This document shows positions 6,501-15,638 of a stretch of DNA of 64,000 bases, one piece after another. The notes under the pieces are model-generated. The model was not told the origin of the DNA, searched no databases, and saw only the letters and a list, made by a program, of their open reading frames with translations. The stretch is from SAR202 cluster bacterium. GTDB lineage: Bacteria > Chloroflexota > Dehalococcoidia > Lucifugimonadales > Lucifugimonadaceae. The stretch is taken from positions 1-64,000 of the forward strand of contig VFGZ01000051.1 in the NCBI GenBank assembly GCA_009392215.1. The letters are read 5' to 3'. Position 1 is the stretch's first letter. The number at the start of each line of letters is the position of its first letter. The position numbers and the translations under genes were made by a program.

Positions 6501-9413
6501 TTATTCGGGGAGGTCGTCCGCTATAATTTCAACAATATGGCGAGATTTTCTACGCGTATTGAAGCCGATCTGTTCCCTACAAGAAATCCCATTTGTAGCA
6601 AATTCTATCTTCGGACCTTCTGCACGGATAGCAGGGAATAATCTGTCTTCGCCGACTGCAGTCGAGACTCCAATGTGTTTCTTCTCGTAACCAAACGAAC
6701 CTGCCATTCCACAGCATCCGGCTTCAATCTCGGTTGCTTCATATCCGTTTGGGAGATTCAATGCTGCGAGGGAATTGTCGGTTCCCTGTAAAGCTCGCTG
6801 ATGACAATGCCCAAAGAATTTCACTTCTTTTTTTATACCGGACCATATGATTTGTTGCTTGGCATCAAGATTCGTTTTAACTAGGAGGTCCTCTACTGTT
6901 ACTACCGACGAGGCGACCTGTTTTGCTTTTTTATCGCCATTCAACAAGTCTGGCCAATCATCGGTCATAGCCGAGATACAACTTGCTTCGCATCCAACAA
7001 TGTTTATGCCTTGCTTGACATAGGGGTGTAAAAGATCCACGTTGGCACGAGCGTTTTTTCCTGCCTTATCGAGAAGCCCTTTCGAAATCATGGGTCTGCC
7101 ACAGCATTTGCGTTCTTTTAGTACAACCACTTCGAATCCAAGAGCTTCGAGTATTCGGGTTGCTGATATCCCTATGGAGGGATGATTGAAATTCATAAAT
7201 GTATCGTGGAACAGTACTACCTTGCCACGTGGTGTGGGAGCAGTGGATTTATGGCCTGAAAACCATTTTTCAAAAGTTTGTCTTACAACTTTAGGTGCAG
7301 GTCGATTACGATCGAATCCGACTATTTTTTCAAATAGGAATTTCACGGGGGTAGATTGATTGAAAAGATTGGCTATGGGTGCAACTGGCGCGGACAATGA
7401 GCTGATTTTATGTATGTCAGCAACTATTTTTGATCCCAGGGGAATTTTGTGAGTTTTGTGGTGTTGATAAAGGTATTCGTATTTTATTTTCGCCATGTCG
7501 ACGTCTGATGGGCATTCGGATTTGCAAGATTTGCATTCAAGGCATAAATCGAGCACGTCAATCAAATCTTCTGATGTGATGTTTTTAGTTGACAGTCCAC
7601 CACTGATAGCGGCCCTTAACGCGTTTGCTCTGCCTCTGGTGGTGTGTTTCTCTTCGAGGGTTGCCATATAGGAAGGGCACATGGCACCAGCGTTAACTTT
7701 TCGGCAGGCCCCAACTCCGTTACATTTTTCTACGGCTGCAACAAACCCGCCTTCTGCTCTCCAATCAAGCCTAACCGGTGGCTCAATAGGCTTGTAGTTA
7801 GGTCCGTATCGCAGGTTTTCGGTTAACCCAGGAGTATCAAATATCTTGTTAGGATTCATAACTCCATTAGGATCGAATGCATTCTTTACTTCACGAAAAT
7901 GCTGGACTAGTTCTTTGCCAAACATCTTGTCTGCGAATGCTCCACGCACTATCCCATCACCGTGCTCTCCACTTAATGATCCTCCGAATTCGAGCACTAA
8001 ATCAGATATTTCATTCGCTATGCGATTCATCTGGTCGATACCTTCGCGTGTTTTCACGTTCACAACAGGCCTAATGTGTAAACAACCAACTGAAGCATGA
8101 CCGTAATAGCCAGCCTGTGTTCCATTAGATGAAACGATTTCATCAAACCTTTTTACATATTCAGGAAGTTTTTCTGGAGAGACTGCAGTGTCTTCAACAA
8201 AAGGTAAAGGTTTTGCATCGCCTGGGATGTTCATAATTAGGCCTAGGCCTGCCTGTCGCATCGCCCATACTTTGGCTTGATCTGATGGGCGCATAATCCG
8301 TGTACTGGCGTAGGGTCGTACACCTTTATTGATTCGTTCATCTAGTTTGTCCAGTTTGAAATGGACTTCTGGCTCAGAGTCACCTGTCATTTCTACGACG
8401 AGAATGTCTGTGGGATCTCCATCTAGGAAGGTAAGTTCTCGAGAGAATCCTAGAGACTGTCGCGCCTGAGAAATGATCATTTGCCCCATGTGTTCAACAG
8501 CATCAGGGTTCTGTTCTAGCGTGGCTACCGTTGCCTCCATCGCCGATGAGATATCCGTAAAGTGAAGAATGGCTAGACCTTTCACTTTGGGAACTGGCTC
8601 GAGGTTGAGTTTTGCTTCCGTTACAGCTACTAAAGTACCTTCGGAGCCGACGGCTAATTTTGCGAGGTTAAAAGCATTATTGTTTTGGATTAAATCTAAG
8701 TTGTATCCACCGACTCTTCGCAGGATTTTCGGATAGCGTTCCTCTACTGCTTCTGCTGATAAGCGCGCGATTTCATTGATCTGATTGTAGATTTTTCCTT
8801 CTAGATTTTCCGACTTTAGCTTAGATTTCAGTAGTCCTGGTGACAATTGTTCAAAGATTGTCGGTGATCCGTCGGAAAGTACAACGTTCATCGATATGAC
8901 CTGATCGACGGTCTTGCCGTAAATTATTGAGCGGGCCCCACATGAGTTATTACCCATTGCACCACCAATATTGGCTCGTGATGATGTACTTGGATCTGGT
9001 GTGAAGAAAAGGCCGGTGTGGCGTACTTGACGGTTTAGATCGTCAATCGTTACCCCAGGTTCAGTCCGTACCCACCGTTCTTCTTGATTGAGCTCTATGA
9101 CTTCGTGCATGTACTTCGAAAAATCGAGCACGATGGCGTGGTTCACGGTTTGTCCTGAAAGTCCGGTGCCTCCGCCACGTGGCAGGACCGATACATTGTT
9201 TTTGTTAGCTATTTCTAGAACGGCTTGTACATCAGACGAGTTCTTAGGAATCACAACTCCTATTGGTTCAATGCGGTACAACGAAGCATCGGTTGAATAC
9301 ATCTGCCTTGATACTTCGTCAAATCTAACTTCACCGATAACTGATGTATTCAGCTCAGCTTCTAGATCCGAACTTGCACTTGAAATCTTTCCCTGGCGCA
9401 GGGTGGTTGTCAT
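6501..9413 (-). CDS. FAD-linked 2-hydroxyacid (D-lactate/2-hydroxyglutarate-type) dehydrogenase fused to an Fe-S/CCG module
   Basis: The ~970-residue fusion has four parts. An N-terminal PCMH FAD-binding domain contains PRGGGTGLSGQ and GNNSCGARS. A GlcD-type FAD-oxidase C domain includes YGHASVGCLHIRP and LSGEHGDG. Two 4Fe-4S ferredoxin-like motifs follow (CLECKSCKSECP is the second). Two CCG domains end the protein (CCGRPMISKG and GCCGMAGSFGYEKKH). The layout matches YdiJ-like dehydrogenases that oxidise D-2-hydroxyacids and pass electrons to quinone. The ORF track starts at 9452, inside terC. The ATG at 9413, preceded by AAAGGA and just past the terC stop, is the better start. Confidence 0.9.
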   Translation of the reverse strand: MTTTLRQGKISSASSDLEAELNTSVIGEVRFDEVSRQMYSTDASLYRIEPIGVVIPKNSSDVQAVLEIANKNNVSVLPRGGGTGLSGQTVNHAIVLDFSKYMHEVIELNQEERWVRTEPGVTIDDLNRQVRHTGLFFTPDPSTSSRANIGGAMGNNSCGARSIIYGKTVDQVISMNVVLSDGSPTIFEQLSPGLLKSKLKSENLEGKIYNQINEIARLSAEAVEERYPKILRRVGGYNLDLIQNNNAFNLAKLAVGSEGTLVAVTEAKLNLEPVPKVKGLAILHFTDISSAMEATVATLEQNPDAVEHMGQMIISQARQSLGFSRELTFLDGDPTDILVVEMTGDSEPEVHFKLDKLDERINKGVRPYASTRIMRPSDQAKVWAMRQAGLGLIMNIPGDAKPLPFVEDTAVSPEKLPEYVKRFDEIVSSNGTQAGYYGHASVGCLHIRPVVNVKTREGIDQMNRIANEISDLVLEFGGSLSGEHGDGIVRGAFADKMFGKELVQHFREVKNAFDPNGVMNPNKIFDTPGLTENLRYGPNYKPIEPPVRLDWRAEGGFVAAVEKCNGVGACRKVNAGAMCPSYMATLEEKHTTRGRANALRAAISGGLSTKNITSEDLIDVLDLCLECKSCKSECPSDVDMAKIKYEYLYQHHKTHKIPLGSKIVADIHKISSLSAPVAPIANLFNQSTPVKFLFEKIVGFDRNRPAPKVVRQTFEKWFSGHKSTAPTPRGKVVLFHDTFMNFNHPSIGISATRILEALGFEVVVLKERKCCGRPMISKGLLDKAGKNARANVDLLHPYVKQGINIVGCEASCISAMTDDWPDLLNGDKKAKQVASSVVTVEDLLVKTNLDAKQQIIWSGIKKEVKFFGHCHQRALQGTDNSLAALNLPNGYEATEIEAGCCGMAGSFGYEKKHIGVSTAVGEDRLFPAIRAEGPKIEFATNGISCREQIGFNTRRKSRHIVEIIADDLPE

Positions 9414-9417
9414 GTGT

Positions 9418-10395
9418 TTAGTCCTTTGAGGCGATGTCTTGTTTTTCCTCAATTGATCCAGGAAACACCTTGGACAAAATTATTGCGAAGGTGAATATTG
9501 AAGAAATCACAATTAACGATAGGAACGGGGATTCCATAATTAAAGGCAGATGGAACTCAAAGGTGTGGGCGGCTTCCTCAAGTAACATTTTCAACCCTAT
9601 TAGCACAAGCACTAGGGCTAAACCGTATTGTAGGAATCGGAATATCCGCACAAGACCTGATAGTAAGAAGAACAAAGGCCTTAGCCCTAAGACCGCCATT
9701 GCATTTGAGCTCCACACAACGAAGGGGTCTTTTGTGATGCCAAAAACAGTAGGTATCGAATCAATAGCAAAAATTATGTCAGTGGTTGCAAGTGCCAAAA
9801 TTACCAGCAGGAATGGGGTCGCTGCCTTTGTGCCATTTGGTAGGCGCTTGAAGAAATTATGTCCATGGAATTCATCCGTCACTGGCATTAATCGCCTGAA
9901 TACACGGACGATAGGGTTTTGTCCGGGATCTACTTCAGAATCACCCAGAAAAGCGATTTTGTAACCTGTGTAAATTAGGAAAGCGCCTAGAACGAAAAGT
10001 ACCCAAGAGAATGCGCTAATTAAACTGAGCCCAATAGCGATAAAAATTGCCCTAGCAATCAGCGCGCCGATGATTCCGTAGAACAGTGCTCTTAGACGCG
10101 CATTATCCGGCAATCCAAAGTAGGTGAAGATCACCAAGAATACAAAGAGGTTATCGACGCTTAATGCTTTTTCAACGACAAACGCCGTAGCGTAATTGAT
10201 TCCTTGATCGGGAGAACCGACTGTGAAAATCCATATTCCGCATACCGTTGCTACACCCCACCAGAAAGCGGTGAGCCACGCTGCTTGCTTCATGCTTACT
10301 GCACGACTGCCGCGCGTCAAAATTAACAAATCGAAAATTAAAAGCACTGCTAGTACTGCGTTGAAAATCAGCCAATGATTAAAACTTTCGATCAA
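9418..10395 (-). CDS. TerC/Alx family integral membrane protein
   Basis: The 325-residue protein has about 8-9 hydrophobic segments. It carries TerC family signatures: FVVEKALSVDNLFVF and ATTDIIFAIDSIPTVFGIT, the acidic intramembrane residues linked to metal handling, plus FVVWSSNAMAVLGLRPLFF. Members (Alx, YkoY) export manganese or act during metal and protein secretion stress. Its stop lies four bases before the start I favour for the FAD dehydrogenase, so the two are probably co-transcribed. The link between them is unclear. Confidence 0.92.
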   Translation of the reverse strand: MIESFNHWLIFNAVLAVLLIFDLLILTRGSRAVSMKQAAWLTAFWWGVATVCGIWIFTVGSPDQGINYATAFVVEKALSVDNLFVFLVIFTYFGLPDNARLRALFYGIIGALIARAIFIAIGLSLISAFSWVLFVLGAFLIYTGYKIAFLGDSEVDPGQNPIVRVFRRLMPVTDEFHGHNFFKRLPNGTKAATPFLLVILALATTDIIFAIDSIPTVFGITKDPFVVWSSNAMAVLGLRPLFFLLSGLVRIFRFLQYGLALVLVLIGLKMLLEEAAHTFEFHLPLIMESPFLSLIVISSIFTFAIILSKVFPGSIEEKQDIASKD

Positions 10396-10522: not shown

Positions 10523-11365
10523 CTAGCCGGTTTTAGTAATTGTGTAAACCTGTTCTCCACGTGGCGTTTTAACCTTGATTTCATCGCCCAATTTATGGTC
10601 GAGGATTGCTGAACCTACTGGAGATAGGATAGAAATTTTACTGGCAAGTGGGTTTGCTTCATTTGGTTCAACAAGCTGGTATTTGTATACCTTGGTCGAA
10701 ATGGTATCTGTTAGTTCGAATTTCGAGCCGATATGAACACGATCTCTATCTTCATTTTTGGCATCGATGATAACGGCTACCTTTAGAGTAGCTTCAATTT
10801 CTTGTATTTTCCCAACGGCCATGCCTTGGGCTTCTCTAGCTGCTTCAAGTGGAGCGTTTTCGCGTACGTCACCGTCTGCTGCAGCGCGCTGGATATCTTC
10901 GACAATTCGGACACGCTCATTTTGTAGTTGGGTCAATTGTTTTTTCATTTCGTTGTATCCACTTTGGGTTAAGCGGATACTTCGAGTTTGTTCTGGAGTT
11001 GTCGAAACCTTAGAGGCTGACACTCTGGATTTACGGAGTCGGAGATGCTGAGCGAGGTTGACGTCGATATGTTCTTTTTTCTTGAGAAAAGTGAGGAAGA
11101 GTTTTACAGCGCTAAGCCTTTCCGTAGAATCTCTGGTGGCAGTCTTAGCACCGAAAATATCGTTGTACTCTCCTATTTCAGAAGGGACGATCGAGCTTAT
11201 CAACCTATCACCCCCTAGCCACCTAACAAATTTGGCGATTTCTGGTTGCGCGGCTTTTTTGGTTTCTTTCGGCATTTGTCTGACATATACCTGAAACGCT
11301 TCGTTGAGTGAAAGTGATGCATTTTCTTCCTGTGCTTGTTCGGGCGCTTCAGACGTTGTTGCCAT
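10523..11365 (-). CDS. greA: GreA transcript cleavage factor with an N-terminal integrase-type core-binding domain
   Basis: The 280-residue protein is far longer than GreA (about 158). Residues ~128-280 are a complete GreA. The coiled-coil tip reads GDVREN (D166, E169), the residues that hold the catalytic Mg in RNA polymerase. The C-terminal FKBP-like domain follows and includes SPVGSAILDHKLGDEI. Residues ~17-115 look like the SAM-like core-binding domain of tyrosine recombinases (FVRWLGGDRLISSIVPSEI, then ERLSAVKLFLTFL). No recombinase catalytic domain is present. GreA rescues backtracked RNA polymerase. The extra domain may bind DNA or protein. It is divergent from rpmH. Confidence 0.88.
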   Translation of the reverse strand: MATTSEAPEQAQEENASLSLNEAFQVYVRQMPKETKKAAQPEIAKFVRWLGGDRLISSIVPSEIGEYNDIFGAKTATRDSTERLSAVKLFLTFLKKKEHIDVNLAQHLRLRKSRVSASKVSTTPEQTRSIRLTQSGYNEMKKQLTQLQNERVRIVEDIQRAAADGDVRENAPLEAAREAQGMAVGKIQEIEATLKVAVIIDAKNEDRDRVHIGSKFELTDTISTKVYKYQLVEPNEANPLASKISILSPVGSAILDHKLGDEIKVKTPRGEQVYTITKTG

Positions 11366-11486
11366 GTTAGGGTTTACTCCGTAAGAACTAGGGTTAGCCT
11401 GTTTCCCGGGCGGGTTTAGCAGGAGAACAATCCTTTAATGATAGTTATGCTGATTTGACTCTGCAAATAATTGACCCCGTTTTCGT

Positions 11487-11595: not shown

Positions 11596-11733
11596 ATGCC
11601 AAAGCGCACATACCAACCCAAATCTCGCCGTCGCCAACGGGTGCACGGTTTCCGTTCGCGAATGAGTTCTAAGGGTGGTCGTGCGATTCTCGCACGTCGT
11701 CGAGGTAAGGGTAGGATTAAGTTGGCCGTGTAA
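11596..11733 (+). CDS. rpmH: 50S ribosomal protein L34
   Basis: This 45-residue ORF was too short for the track. It reads [20 protein letters not shown] and continues with [18 protein letters not shown]. That is an almost canonical L34, including the MPKRTxQP start and the basic R-R-x-G-R-x-L core. It is the first gene of the rpmH-rnpA-yidD-yidC-jag cluster, with rnpA starting 13 bp after its stop. Confidence 0.97.
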
Positions 11734-11746
11734 AAGGTCAGATTTA

Positions 11747-12109
11747 ATGTCTTTACCTGCCACACAGAGAATTCAGCATCCGGTAGACTTTCGGCGTGTA
11801 TTGGCGAGCGGAAATCGAGTGTCTAATTCTCGTATGAATGTTGTTGCAACCTCTAATAACCGGTCTCGTTCCAGAATAGGTTTGTCTATTAGTAAACGCG
11901 TAGGCTCTGCGGTCACACGTAATTTGATCAAGCGTCGAATTCAAACTGCTTTTGCCAATATTTGTAACGGGGGCGGTTGGGATTTAGTAGTTATAGCTAA
12001 ACCCCCATCTTCTGGCGTTTCGTATGCAGAACTCTGTGCAGATATTCACAGCTTGTCTAATCGATTGGGAATAGAAGTGACTTCATTGGAACAAGAAGTG
12101 GTTGCGTAA
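11747..12109 (+). CDS. rnpA: Ribonuclease P protein component
   Basis: The 120-residue protein component of RNase P assists 5' maturation of tRNAs. It has the RNR motif region SKRVGSAVTRNLIKRRIQ, which contacts the RNA subunit. The ORF track opens at 11675 inside rpmH. I chose the ATG at 11747 (MSLPATQRIQHPVDF), preceded by AAAGG, because the family starts with L-x-x-x-x-F-x-x-V. The stop overlaps the yidD start by one base. Confidence 0.95.
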   Translation: MSLPATQRIQHPVDFRRVLASGNRVSNSRMNVVATSNNRSRSRIGLSISKRVGSAVTRNLIKRRIQTAFANICNGGGWDLVVIAKPPSSGVSYAELCADIHSLSNRLGIEVTSLEQEVVA

Positions 12110-12333
12110 TGAGTGTGTTGTTACTTTCATTAATTCGAATTTATAAAATGACGATTTCACCGTACATGCTAGGACAATGTCGTTTTGATCCGACGTGTTC
12201 TGCGTTTGCCGCTGAAGCAATCGAGACGTGTGGTGTGGTGAGAGGGTCTTGGCTTGCCGTCAAAAGGGTTGTTCGATGTCATCCAGGTGGGTCTCGTGGG
12301 TATGATCCGGTCCCCGAAAAGAAAATCTATTAA
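12109..12333 (+). CDS. yidD: Membrane protein insertion efficiency factor YidD
   Basis: The 74-residue protein has the full YidD signature: LIRIYKMTISPYMLGQCRFDPTCS, with the conserved cysteines, and RVVRCHPGGSRGYDPVP. YidD is a small amphipathic membrane-associated protein that helps YidC-dependent insertion. Its start shares one base with the rnpA stop, which indicates translational coupling. The next 150 bp to the lipoprotein gene hold only inverted and direct repeats. Confidence 0.96.
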   Translation: MSVLLLSLIRIYKMTISPYMLGQCRFDPTCSAFAAEAIETCGVVRGSWLAVKRVVRCHPGGSRGYDPVPEKKIY

Positions 12334-12366
12334 TTCCTATATTTATTCATATTTAGCTAAACCATT

Positions 12367-12472
12367 CCCGTATATCGCCTTCTTTGTAAATCGATACGGG
12401 TTCAAAACTGTCCGGAGGCCAAAACGCCACCGTTAATATTCGATTCAGCTGGTAACAATTACGGACAGCTGG
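12367..12472 (+). repeat. Nested inverted repeats and CAGCTGG direct repeats before the lipoprotein gene
   Basis: CCCGTAT (12367-12373) pairs with ATACGGG (12394-12400). CTGTCCG (12408-12414) pairs with CGGACAG (12462-12468). CAGCTGG occurs twice, at 12446 and 12466, exactly 20 bp apart and just upstream of the ATG at 12484. They could form mRNA structure or an operator. No uridine tract follows, so a terminator is unlikely. Confidence 0.4.
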
Positions 12473-12483
12473 AAAGTAACCAA

Positions 12484-13764
12484 ATGACTATGTCTAATTG
12501 TGGTAGCCAAAAATGGTGGTTGAGGGCGCTTGGCGTCTTTTTCATAATGGCTGCCACAATTGGTTGTGTTAATGACCTAACTCCTCATGGCGGATGGTCA
12601 AGTCCGGTGGTGTCTGACAATAAATTGCTAATTGGTAACGTAGAAGGCAATCTTGTTCGTTTAGACCTAGTGTCAGCGAATTTAGATAGCGGTTGGAGTT
12701 ATCCGAGAGAAGATGGTCTTGGAGCGATCTACTCTGACGTTTTGGTTGTAGACGGTGTGATATATGGTTCTGGCTATACCTGTAGAGGTGATGACTGTGA
12801 AGGGGAAATTTTTGCAGTTGACAATATTGATGGTTTTTCGATTTGGGGTCAGAGCGGACTATCGCTGAAAACAAAATTGATCGGACAATTGGGATTATCC
12901 GACAAAACACTTCTTGTGGGTACTTCAGCATTAGGCGACGAAGATGACGGCGCTGATGGATATCTTTACGCACTTGATGTGACTCCGGGCACTGGGTCTA
13001 TTGTTAAATGGCGGATCCCGCTCGACGGCAATGTTTGGAGTGGGGTTGTGGTCGAAGGGTCCATGGCATATTTGTCTACTATGGCCGGGACTGTTTATGC
13101 CATCAATGTCGCTGAAGGTGAGCCTGGGGATATAGTCGACCAAGACCCTGCCTCACGTATTATTTGGAAATTTGAAAGTGGCAATGCCATTGCGGGCCCA
13201 CTTAATATTGTCGCCGGCAGTGTTTATTTTGGGGACCTTGCAGGCAAGGTTTACAAATTAAATGTTCTTGCTCGAAATGCTGAAGTAAAATCTGCTGAAG
13301 CAAACGTGCATGGCGAAAAGATAGATTTAGCAAACGGTGAGTGGATATTTGATGCGGGTGCATGGGTTTGGGCCAAGCCTGTCAAAGAGGACGGCACATT
13401 GTTTGTATCGGCTTTAGATGGTTCGATACACGCAGTTGATGACTCTACCGGCAACAAAATATGGTCAGCTTCTATCGAGGGGCAAATTGTTTCATCTCCA
13501 ATTTTATTCGATCGTAAGAGAGGTCAGATAAGAGAGCGGGCCCTTGCAGTTCCATCTGGGGATGAGAATGTTTGGGTTATTTCTGTTATTGATGGTCGTG
13601 AATTGGGTGTTTTTGTAACCGAAGAACCGGTCAAATCTTCGCCGTTGGTTCATGAAGGTAATCTTTATGTTCATACTTTGAACGGTCAGCTTAAGTGGTT
13701 CTCGGTAGATGATACGACTCAGCGTGGCTGCATTGATCTCAAGGATGGTGCGCAATGCAATTGA
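12484..13764 (+). CDS. PQQ-type beta-propeller lipoprotein
   Basis: The 426-residue protein has an N-terminal hydrophobic signal ending in AATIGC (likely lipidated cysteine at residue 28). It continues with repeated propeller blades of the PQQ/BamB type. Examples are GGWSSPVVSDNKLLIG, DGSIHAVDDSTGNKIWSAS and KSSPLVHEGNLYVHTLNGQL. It is probably anchored outside the cytoplasmic membrane, where such propellers act as scaffolds. Its place between yidD and yidC suggests a link to membrane protein insertion or folding, but no enzymatic quinone-binding role can be shown. Confidence 0.85.
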   Translation: MTMSNCGSQKWWLRALGVFFIMAATIGCVNDLTPHGGWSSPVVSDNKLLIGNVEGNLVRLDLVSANLDSGWSYPREDGLGAIYSDVLVVDGVIYGSGYTCRGDDCEGEIFAVDNIDGFSIWGQSGLSLKTKLIGQLGLSDKTLLVGTSALGDEDDGADGYLYALDVTPGTGSIVKWRIPLDGNVWSGVVVEGSMAYLSTMAGTVYAINVAEGEPGDIVDQDPASRIIWKFESGNAIAGPLNIVAGSVYFGDLAGKVYKLNVLARNAEVKSAEANVHGEKIDLANGEWIFDAGAWVWAKPVKEDGTLFVSALDGSIHAVDDSTGNKIWSASIEGQIVSSPILFDRKRGQIRERALAVPSGDENVWVISVIDGRELGVFVTEEPVKSSPLVHEGNLYVHTLNGQLKWFSVDDTTQRGCIDLKDGAQCN

Positions 13765-13775
13765 GCACCATCCTT
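13741..13775 (+). terminator. Strong hairpin spanning the stop codon of the propeller lipoprotein gene
   Basis: AAGGATGGTGC (13741-13751) and GCACCATCCTT (13765-13775) form a perfect 11-bp stem. After one mismatch, CAAT/ATTG adds four more pairs around a 3-base loop. The lipoprotein stop codon lies inside the hairpin, and TTAATATTTCC follows. It may end transcription, protect the 3' end, or set the ratio of lipoprotein to YidC, whose ATG lies 36 bp downstream. Confidence 0.65.
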
Positions 13776-13810
13776 AATATTTCCATTACCTTCTTGCCGA
13801 GGACTATTTA

Positions 13811-14785
13811 ATGGAAATTTTTGGCATTTTGTGGCAAGAACTTATCATGCGCCCCATGATCAATAGCCTTGCTTTGCTATACCAGCTTCTGTTTAGTAAC
13901 TTCGGTTTCAGCATCATTGTTTTCACTATTCTTATACGTTTGGCCATGATTCCGTTGACAGTACGTCAGACTCGTCAGATGAAGAAGATGCAGATCATTC
14001 AGCCGAAGATGAAAGCGATTCAGGACAAATACAAAGGCAAATCCGGTGATGCTCGTCGCCAGATGTCATCTGAGACGATGGCTCTTTACAAAGAAGCTGG
14101 AGTCAGTCCGGTTGGATGTCTTGGCCCAATGATTATTCAGATGCCAATTTGGATAGGTTTCTATCGAGCTATTTTGCAAACAATGCCTTCGACACCAGAA
14201 GGGATGGCAAATCTTTCAGCACTGTTTTATAGCTGGAATCCAGCTATTTCCGCAGTGCCATTTAACAGTCAATTTGTGGGTCTCTCACTTGTGGATTTAG
14301 TTTCAGCAGCTAGTTTGCCATGGAATTACGTGTTGCCTGTGGTCGTAGGGGCTTCAATGTTCCTTCAACAAAAGATGACTACGAACCCGACAACAGACCC
14401 TCGACAACGCCAGACTAACCAAATGATGCTGTGGATGATGCCGATAATGTTTGGGGCATTTACGTGGCAGTTCCCAGCCGGTTTGGCGGTTTACATACTG
14501 TTTTCAAACATTGTCGGCGTGGTTATTCAATACTACGTAGGCGGCAAACAACCAATTGAATTGTTTGGTCGATCATTTTTAGGTACCGAACAAACTAAAG
14601 CTGAGCTAATAGCGCAACGTGCAGCGGAAGTTGCAGGATCTAATGTGGATGCGTCTAGCCCGAAGGAGTCAGATCAAAATGGCCAGAGTGAGGAAATTCA
14701 GCGGAAAGACAGTAGACGAGGCGACAGAAATCGCTCTCGACGAAATGGACGTCGAACTAGAAGACGTCGAAATAAGGGTAACTAG
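13811..14785 (+). CDS. yidC: Membrane protein insertase YidC/Oxa1
   Basis: The 324-residue insertase is of the short Gram-positive/Chloroflexi type without the large periplasmic domain. It has the conserved groove arginine region (FTILIRLAMIPLTVRQTRQMKKM), the cytoplasmic coiled hairpin, and later transmembrane segments including MMLWMMPIMFGAFTWQFPAGLAVY. The C-terminal tail is very basic (RRGDRNRSRRNGRRTRRRR) and could touch ribosomes. The last 107 bp are shared with jag in another frame, so the tail sequence is constrained by both genes. Confidence 0.95.
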   Translation: MEIFGILWQELIMRPMINSLALLYQLLFSNFGFSIIVFTILIRLAMIPLTVRQTRQMKKMQIIQPKMKAIQDKYKGKSGDARRQMSSETMALYKEAGVSPVGCLGPMIIQMPIWIGFYRAILQTMPSTPEGMANLSALFYSWNPAISAVPFNSQFVGLSLVDLVSAASLPWNYVLPVVVGASMFLQQKMTTNPTTDPRQRQTNQMMLWMMPIMFGAFTWQFPAGLAVYILFSNIVGVVIQYYVGGKQPIELFGRSFLGTEQTKAELIAQRAAEVAGSNVDASSPKESDQNGQSEEIQRKDSRRGDRNRSRRNGRRTRRRRNKGN

Positions 14786-15638
14786 AACAGGACGTTCTGG
14801 GATACTTGGATTTGGAGGAGAGCTTGCTGAAATTGAGGTTGCATTAGTAGCCGATGGCGGTATCACCGACATAGATGAAAATTTAATCGATCCTACAGAT
14901 GCCGAAGCTGAAACTTCTAAAAAAACCGCTCGTTCTTCTCGGCGCCGTGGGCGTGATAAAAAAGAGCGATCTCGACATAGCGGTAGAGGTAGTGGACGGA
15001 GTGGGGGAGCCTCAAGTCGTTTAGCAGTTTCAACGACTGAAAGAATTTCTGGGTCTGATTCAAAAAACAGACCTGTGGATTCCTCCGACAGCGGTGCTAA
15101 ATCTCATAGTGATTTAGCTGCTGCGCCCAGCGCATCACATTCTGAGCGTAATAAAGAAACTGCGGAGCCAATAATTCGTGAAAAGGATGAAGAGGCAGAG
15201 CAGCTTGTATCAGAACTCATTGATTACTTCCTTGGTGCAATGGGTGTAGTTGCTGATACGTACATTCGCGAGGATGACGAAGGAACGATGACCTTCGAAA
15301 TTGATGGACCTGATGCTGGCCTGTTGATTGGTAGACGAGGAGAGACTCTCCAAGCGCTTCAGTTTATTGTCCGTATGGTTACGAATCGTCAACTTGGTCG
15401 TAAGGCCCATGTTGTAATTGATATAGAAGATTACCGCGAGCGGCGTGTGCAGATGTTACGTCGTCTTGCGAAACGTACAGCTAATCGTGTTGGATCTAGC
15501 GGACGTGAATATACTCTCGAGCCTATGTCACCTGCAGAGCGACGAATTGTCCACATGTCACTTGCGGGACATAATGAAGTTCGTACCGAATCTGAAGGCG
15601 AAGGTAATCAACGTAGGGTAGTGATATTTCCAAAATGA
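14679..15638 (+). CDS. jag: RNA-binding protein Jag/KhpB
   Basis: The ~319-residue protein has a Jag-N domain at residues 1-55 (KTVDEATEIALDEMDVELED). A long low-complexity Ser/Arg/Lys linker follows, then a KH domain with GRRGETLQALQ and a C-terminal R3H domain (ending LAGHNEVRTESEGEG). It binds RNA and, with KhpA, affects cell elongation in Gram-positive bacteria. The track begins at 14619. I prefer the ATG at 14679 because GAAGGAG lies 12 bases upstream and Jag-N starts there. It overlaps yidC by 107 bp. Confidence 0.93.
   Translation: MARVRKFSGKTVDEATEIALDEMDVELEDVEIRVTRTGRSGILGFGGELAEIEVALVADGGITDIDENLIDPTDAEAETSKKTARSSRRRGRDKKERSRHSGRGSGRSGGASSRLAVSTTERISGSDSKNRPVDSSDSGAKSHSDLAAAPSASHSERNKETAEPIIREKDEEAEQLVSELIDYFLGAMGVVADTYIREDDEGTMTFEIDGPDAGLLIGRRGETLQALQFIVRMVTNRQLGRKAHVVIDIEDYRERRVQMLRRLAKRTANRVGSSGREYTLEPMSPAERRIVHMSLAGHNEVRTESEGEGNQRRVVIFPK

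Follow-up and report, generated by a model that had tools for sequence, protein, structure and literature searches.

A conserved fusion of GreA with a predicted recombinase-type core-binding domain in Dehalococcoidia and other Chloroflexota

GreA is among the most uniform of bacterial transcription factors, with about 157 residues, and is normally held to RNA polymerase (RNAP) solely via the secondary channel. Its coiled coil enters this channel and brings acidic residues to the active-site magnesium, and its C-terminal domain sits on the channel rim. In Escherichia coli GreA, the residues interacting with the RNAP magnesium are D41 and E44 (PMC7527559). The Gre family also has inhibitory members such as Gfh1, and competition for the channel has been described (PMC4598747); the tyrosine-recombinase fold is known to serve as a regulator in MrpR of prophage SPbeta (PMC10516654). 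In the window (the whole 64-kb stretch of SAR202 cluster DNA that was analyzed), a GreA is joined to a further N-terminal domain, a fusion not described in the literature searched.

Parts of the fused protein and identity of its N-terminal domain

The fused greA gene, delimited by its open reading frame (ORF) and Pfam matches, occupies positions 10523 to 11365 on the minus strand (280 codons plus stop, with the ATG at 11365 and the stop at 10523), and direct reading of the sequence places a Shine-Dalgarno-like GGAG about 11 bases 5' of the ATG (11377 to 11380, minus strand). The C-terminal part shows the GreA domain order of a coiled-coil N-domain followed by an FKBP-like C-domain. The coiled coil (residues 129 to 200; 10766 to 10981, minus strand; model helices 134 to 163 and 171 to 196) matched Pfam GreA_GreB_N at residues 131 to 199 (E = 8e-18), and the RNAP-binding type of FKBP-like domain (residues 201 to 280; 10526 to 10765, minus strand) matched GreA_GreB at residues 207 to 278 (E = 9e-20), with the gathering score exceeded in both cases. 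The tip of the coiled coil is AAADGDVRENAPLEAARE (GDVREN motif); within it, alignments equate D166 and E169 of the D166-V-R-E169 stretch (10859 to 10870, minus strand) with D41 and E44 of E. coli GreA, and both acids are invariant among the aligned relatives. In Foldseek comparisons, the GreA part matched E. coli GreA and related GreA/Gfh1 structures (including 1grj, 3aoi, and 9a7t) with TM scores of 0.86 to 0.91 by target length, and a single-sequence PDB search with the window protein returned GreA/Gfh1 matches alone, for the GreA part. The intact tip argues against membership of the Gfh1-like, cleavage-dead class. The NCBIfam GreA cut-offs, which serve for naming equivalogs or subfamilies and are not a functional criterion, were narrowly missed (TIGR01462, 130.6 of 139 bits), with NF001261 (134 of 167 bits) and NF001263 (132.3 of 145 bits) also under cut-off.

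Residues 18 to 108 (11042 to 11314, minus strand) form the added domain, which follows a disordered and poorly conserved N terminus (residues 1 to 17; 11315 to 11365, minus strand) with a pLDDT below 50 at residues 1 to 15 and a high dN. No Pfam family scored above its cut-off in the first approximately 125 residues (Phage_int_SAM_1, E = 0.025); residues 27 to 119 matched the N-terminal part of the XerC/XerD NCBIfam models (E about 1e-4), as did 34 to 36 of 55 relatives. A profile built from an alignment of 55 sequences was compared by hhalign with 27 Xer N-domains from relatives of the window (same lineage), giving 95.8% probability (E = 6.9e-9, 83 columns); 20 column-shuffled controls reached at most 3.3%, and comparison with either the Xer catalytic domain or the GreA domain gave 0.1%. 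Searched over 400 Chloroflexota genomes, the same profile ranked fused GreA on top, followed by ORFs mostly of about 300 to 400 amino acids, and the four non-GreA matches checked were all tyrosine recombinases with Phage_integrase and SAM-like domains. The best hit of a PDB profile search was the integrase N-domain 3nrw (E = 0.0085). Modeled alone with AlphaFold, the domain has four long helices and a short fifth (pLDDT 78, pTM 0.67), and its first 38 Foldseek matches are all tyrosine recombinases or integrases, led again by 3nrw (TM 0.71 to 0.73, E = 0.013, probability 1.00). The E values of the fold searches are modest, and the weight comes from the agreement among all methods, by which we judge the N-domain to be homologous to the core-binding (CB) domain of Xer and phage tyrosine recombinases. 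The recombinase catalytic domain (R-H-R-Y) is replaced by GreA, with no Phage_integrase match in the Pfam scan; the window protein is therefore not a recombinase.

A flexible basic linker (residues 109 to 128; 10982 to 11041, minus strand), recognized from the structure model and from the charge across relatives (mean net charge about +5 [+5.3]), connects the two parts. The full-length AlphaFold model (pLDDT 79, pTM 0.47) is disordered in the linker at residues 113 to 126, and its Foldseek matches are GreA/Gfh1 first and integrase N-domains next; at this pTM, the model makes no prediction of how the domains are arranged with respect to one another. In the N-domain, R83 (K/R in 96% of relatives) and K88 (K/R in 55/55), at the start of the fourth helix, align with basic Xer residues, and R109 (K/R in 98%), R111, and K112 (K/R in 55/55) form a basic patch with the linker. 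The core itself has a net charge of just about +1.4, and the second helix has lost the S..T...Y pattern with which it starts in Xer proteins. Beside the basic positions, F46, W49, G51, Y67, F90, L91, and H107 are strictly conserved, and the fused family has conserved motifs of its own, FVRWxG..R and NLAxHLRxRK.

These results bear out the domain assignments of a previous sequence-only reading of the locus, which had placed the gene correctly without giving its strand (minus). It had described a full GreA with the catalytic GDVREN tip, now seen in both Pfam domains and the invariant D166/E169; an N-terminal part of core-binding type, in agreement with the hhalign, Foldseek, and recombinase matches; and a missing recombinase catalytic domain, consistent with the Pfam scan. 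The reading had also held that a structure prediction devoid of the core-binding fold would overturn it, and AlphaFold recovered that fold.

Authenticity, distribution, and genomic context of the fusion

Of the 76 genomes in the window's GTDB family, 69 contain a match, a single one each, including all of those with completeness of 90% or more and contamination of 5% or less (26/26) and every genus (12/12), and in all 69 the alignment begins within the first 29 query residues. Class-wide, 380 of 394 genomes contain a match, and among the matches listed the alignment start lies mostly at residues 1 to 42. The same gene, at 82% identity, is found in the closed genome CP046147 of “Ca. Lucifugimonas marina” JH1073, a circular chromosome obtained with PacBio (PMC10444878), and closed genomes of 1.4 to 1.5 Mb carrying the fusion exist within the class. 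Between the window and its nearest relative, dN and dS are 0.043 and 0.616 for the CB-like domain (ratio about 0.07) and 0.038 and 0.578 for GreA. As the two ratios are similar, the N-domain is translated and selected, and it is under purifying selection as strong as that on GreA itself. Misassembly or a chance ORF is ruled out by several hundred genomes, the closed chromosomes, and the dN/dS values. The misassembled join that the sequence-only reading had foreseen as an objection thus fails against the 69 family genomes and the closed genome, and the fusion it had proposed is genuine, as judged from several hundred relatives together with profile comparisons and the predicted structure.

That reading had suggested looking for the fusion in other Chloroflexota, where it indeed extends through Dehalococcoidia and into families outside this class (L206 to L220). 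Among relatives in GTDB genomes, the best 80 of 447 all have Chloroflexi-type names. In a GreA-domain tree of sampled families, the fused sequences form one clade (SH-aLRT 96), and the tree calls for just two label changes, the fusion being gained once and lost once. The loss is in genome G145, where a fused-type GreA of 182 amino acids with the tip KDVREN (L377:2509-3057, plus strand) is without the CB-like domain. The N-domain is therefore not indispensable everywhere. The simplest reading of these sequences is one ancient fusion followed by vertical inheritance and rare loss, and comparison across genomes indicates that the fusion is an old, actively kept, class-wide architecture. This age and spread lay beyond the reach of the sequence-only reading, as did the standing of the fused protein as the family's only GreA and the tip loss in unfused paralogues of the class.

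Several features of related GreA proteins were seen in passing. In the G145 protein, a short lysine-rich basic tail stands in place of the CB-like domain, making it a natural N-domain deletion. The fused GreAs of the class have a first coiled-coil helix one residue shorter than that of E. coli GreA and of most unfused copies, a shortening that maps to about residues 148 to 150 of the window protein and might alter the register of the coiled coil; no such shortening is apparent in fused GreAs of other classes. Other long N-terminal extensions of GreA (about 145 to 415 residues) occur at L105:28-1746, L247:1498-3039, L238:748-1725, and L328:194-1081; Pfam scans of the L105, L247, and L328 proteins found GreA domains alone.

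The gene order greA-terC-FAD oxidase does not extend beyond close relatives of the window, the neighbors being different in Dehalococcoides and other classes, and so nothing on function follows from it. A gene at 6501 to 9452 (minus strand) encodes a 983-amino-acid protein in which an FAD-linked oxidase is joined to 4Fe-4S and CCG domains, and related ORFs are present in 7 of the 19 greA neighborhoods compared. Adjoining greA is an rnpA-yidD-yidC-jag order (11675 to 15638, plus strand), with a gene for a 426-amino-acid PQQ/BamB-like beta-propeller (12484 to 13764) lying between yidD and yidC, where L. marina (L379) also has a related propeller gene. RNA-family and tRNA scans of the 64-kb window found nothing.

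The fusion may also bear on a described protein, GreA (cbdbA743) of Dehalococcoides mccartyi CBDB1, for which an acetylated K17 was reported (PMC7918482). In the Dehalococcoides-like loci compared (L102, L099, and L381), this residue corresponds to lysine 17 when numbering begins at an internal Met (MTASGYKKLEDELSTLK), and residue 17 of the full ORF is N or S. The numbering suggests that the CBDB1 GreA was annotated from a start within the ORF, so that the annotated D. mccartyi protein is probably without the N-domain. Annotation thus appears to have missed the fusion, given the lack of a Pfam call for the N-domain and the internal start in D. mccartyi.

Catalytic tips of fused and unfused GreA

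The D/E pair of the tip is intact in 131 of 131 distinct fused proteins. A second GreA, unfused and about 156 amino acids long, occurs in many genomes of the class, and both tip acids were present in the unfused copy of none of the 72 fusion-carrying genomes examined (39 families), typical tips being GGTVDN, ASTQNN, and GPDQLD. This division, in which fused GreA is always tip-intact and its unfused partner never is among the fusion-carrying genomes examined, is new. In fusion-free Chloroflexota, by comparison, a tip-intact unfused GreA was found in 29 of 43 genomes from the copy first examined, and nine more were tip-intact in a second copy, giving at least 38 of 43. As counts by genome are not phylogenetically independent, the comparison was also made by family, giving 0 of 39 versus 14 of 20 families with a tip-intact unfused copy (second copies not included). 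Eight genomes of uncertain fusion status (G188, G127, G280, G105, G145, G201, G078, and G169) were left out of the tip counts.

In the window's family and in complete Dehalococcoides-like genomes, no unfused GreA was detected, and the fused protein is the only GreA detected in the window's genome (assembly 85% complete). The tip counts suggest that fusion-carrying lineages depend on the fused protein for cleavage, their unfused copy being probably cleavage-dead and perhaps Gfh1-like. The class of the abundant marine SAR202 and the dehalogenating Dehalococcoides thus appears reliant on a GreA with an added, conserved, recombinase-derived domain, and the split of catalytic and tip-less Gre paralogues into fused and unfused forms is a question addressable with three proteins.

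Within the class, the tip-less unfused paralogues at L087, L088, L093, L095, L103, and about 70 further loci, all in genomes that have the fused GreA as well, make up a candidate Gfh1-like family. In genome G133, a 154-amino-acid GreA-like protein (L106:1495-1959, minus strand) has about nine coiled-coil tip residues deleted altogether.

Possible roles of the N-terminal domain and comparison with known systems

We hypothesize that the fused protein is a working cleavage factor carrying a descendant of an Xer-like CB domain that binds nucleic acid, most likely DNA near RNAP, a reading that we favor with some reserve. By analogy with GreA biology, the coiled coil would enter the secondary channel of RNAP, D166 and E169 would place the second magnesium and a water molecule and so cut backtracked RNA, and the GreA C-domain would hold the channel rim. 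With less certainty, the CB-like domain would stay outside the channel on its flexible basic linker of about 16 to 20 residues and bind nucleic acid, for which a DNA duplex near the polymerase is the likeliest candidate, and such a tether might keep the factor longer, or in higher local concentration, at complexes that have stalled or backtracked. If the N-domain does bind DNA, transcript cleavage in these bacteria would have a template-tethering step unknown in model bacteria. Granted that the domain is correctly identified, nucleic-acid tethering would be its likeliest role, and the conserved basic residues and basic linker weakly favor nucleic-acid contact. The sequence-only reading had suggested either a tether of GreA to DNA near paused polymerase or the binding of a partner, and both suggestions would fit. 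CB domains normally clamp DNA jointly with the catalytic domain and alone may bind weakly. The core charge of only about +1.4 and the loss of the Xer S..T...Y pattern would count against a tether.

The strictly conserved residues beside the basic ones offer another reading, since F46, W49, G51, Y67, and H107 could equally belong to the core or to a protein interface. Together with F90 and L91, their strict conservation would suit a protein-docking module that has lost DNA binding and that fixes GreA at the secondary channel by binding the RNAP surface or another Chloroflexota elongation or repair factor; the abandoned S..T...Y pattern fits this proposal too, and in recombinase synapses, proteins also contact each other through their CB domains. 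However, K88, K112, R109, and the strongly basic linker suit nucleic acid at least as well, and the nonconserved gene neighborhood offers no candidate partner from the comparison. We regard docking as the main rival of the tether, although as rather unlikely. The coexistence in many fusion genomes of fused tip-intact and unfused tip-degenerate GreA, with Gfh1 inhibition and channel competition as precedents (PMC4598747), brings to mind a regulatory switch or competitor module that chooses which of the two occupies the polymerase. Yet the window's whole family and complete Dehalococcoides-like genomes keep the N-domain without an unfused paralogue; competition is therefore not its only role, and we consider the switch improbable.

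Least credible, to the point of near exclusion, is that the N-terminal part is an annotation or assembly artifact or an unselected remnant, with GreA translated from an internal start. The acetyl-lysine numbering of D. mccartyi CBDB1 fits such a start, but the same join recurs in several hundred genomes, closed chromosomes included, and the N-domain has the low dN/dS given above. In the window protein, M31 is the sole internal ATG ahead of the GreA coiled coil, and a start there would still keep most of the N-domain; an internal start is ruled out for this protein by the sequence, the dN/dS, and the upstream GGAG. Returning to the tethering hypothesis, we tentatively extend it to a history that we hold with more doubt than conviction: ancient capture of a recombinase DNA clamp would have made one GreA copy DNA-tethered and the only GreA still able to promote cleavage in Dehalococcoidia and in several further lineages of Chloroflexota, the original unfused GreA would have become a tip-less, presumably cleavage-inhibiting partner, and this cleave/anti-cleave pair would later have been reduced to the fused form alone in SAR202 and Dehalococcoides.

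Among known systems, TPR-GreA/B-C-PIN conflict systems (PMC8195603) differ from the window protein, in which the Pfam scan found no TPR or PIN match. PRK14720 and PRK06330 (NCBIfam) likewise have GreA at the C terminus of a longer protein, but their N-parts of several hundred residues are unlike the window's, and the GreA segment alone aligns (model positions 741 to 899 of 906 and 560 to 704 of 718, respectively). Gfh1 and the tip-altered Gre paralogues (Thermus, Rv3788) resemble the unfused, presumably cleavage-dead paralogues of fusion genomes, whereas the window protein has an intact tip. With the CB domain of XerC/XerD and phage integrases (Phage_int_SAM_1; 3nrw, 3lys, and lambda Int 2oxo), the window protein shares fold and profile homology over residues of about 18 to 115; it differs in being without the catalytic domain, in having lost S..T...Y, and in its new conserved motifs. 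MrpR of prophage SPbeta (8a0a) likewise has a recombinase-derived CB domain working outside recombination (PMC10516654), although it keeps the whole recombinase fold, acts as a repressor, and has no GreA part. Like GreA of the E. coli type (PF03449 and PF01272), the window protein has both GreA domains and the D/E pair of the tip, and it differs by its N-terminal CB-like domain (residues 18 to 108) and basic linker.
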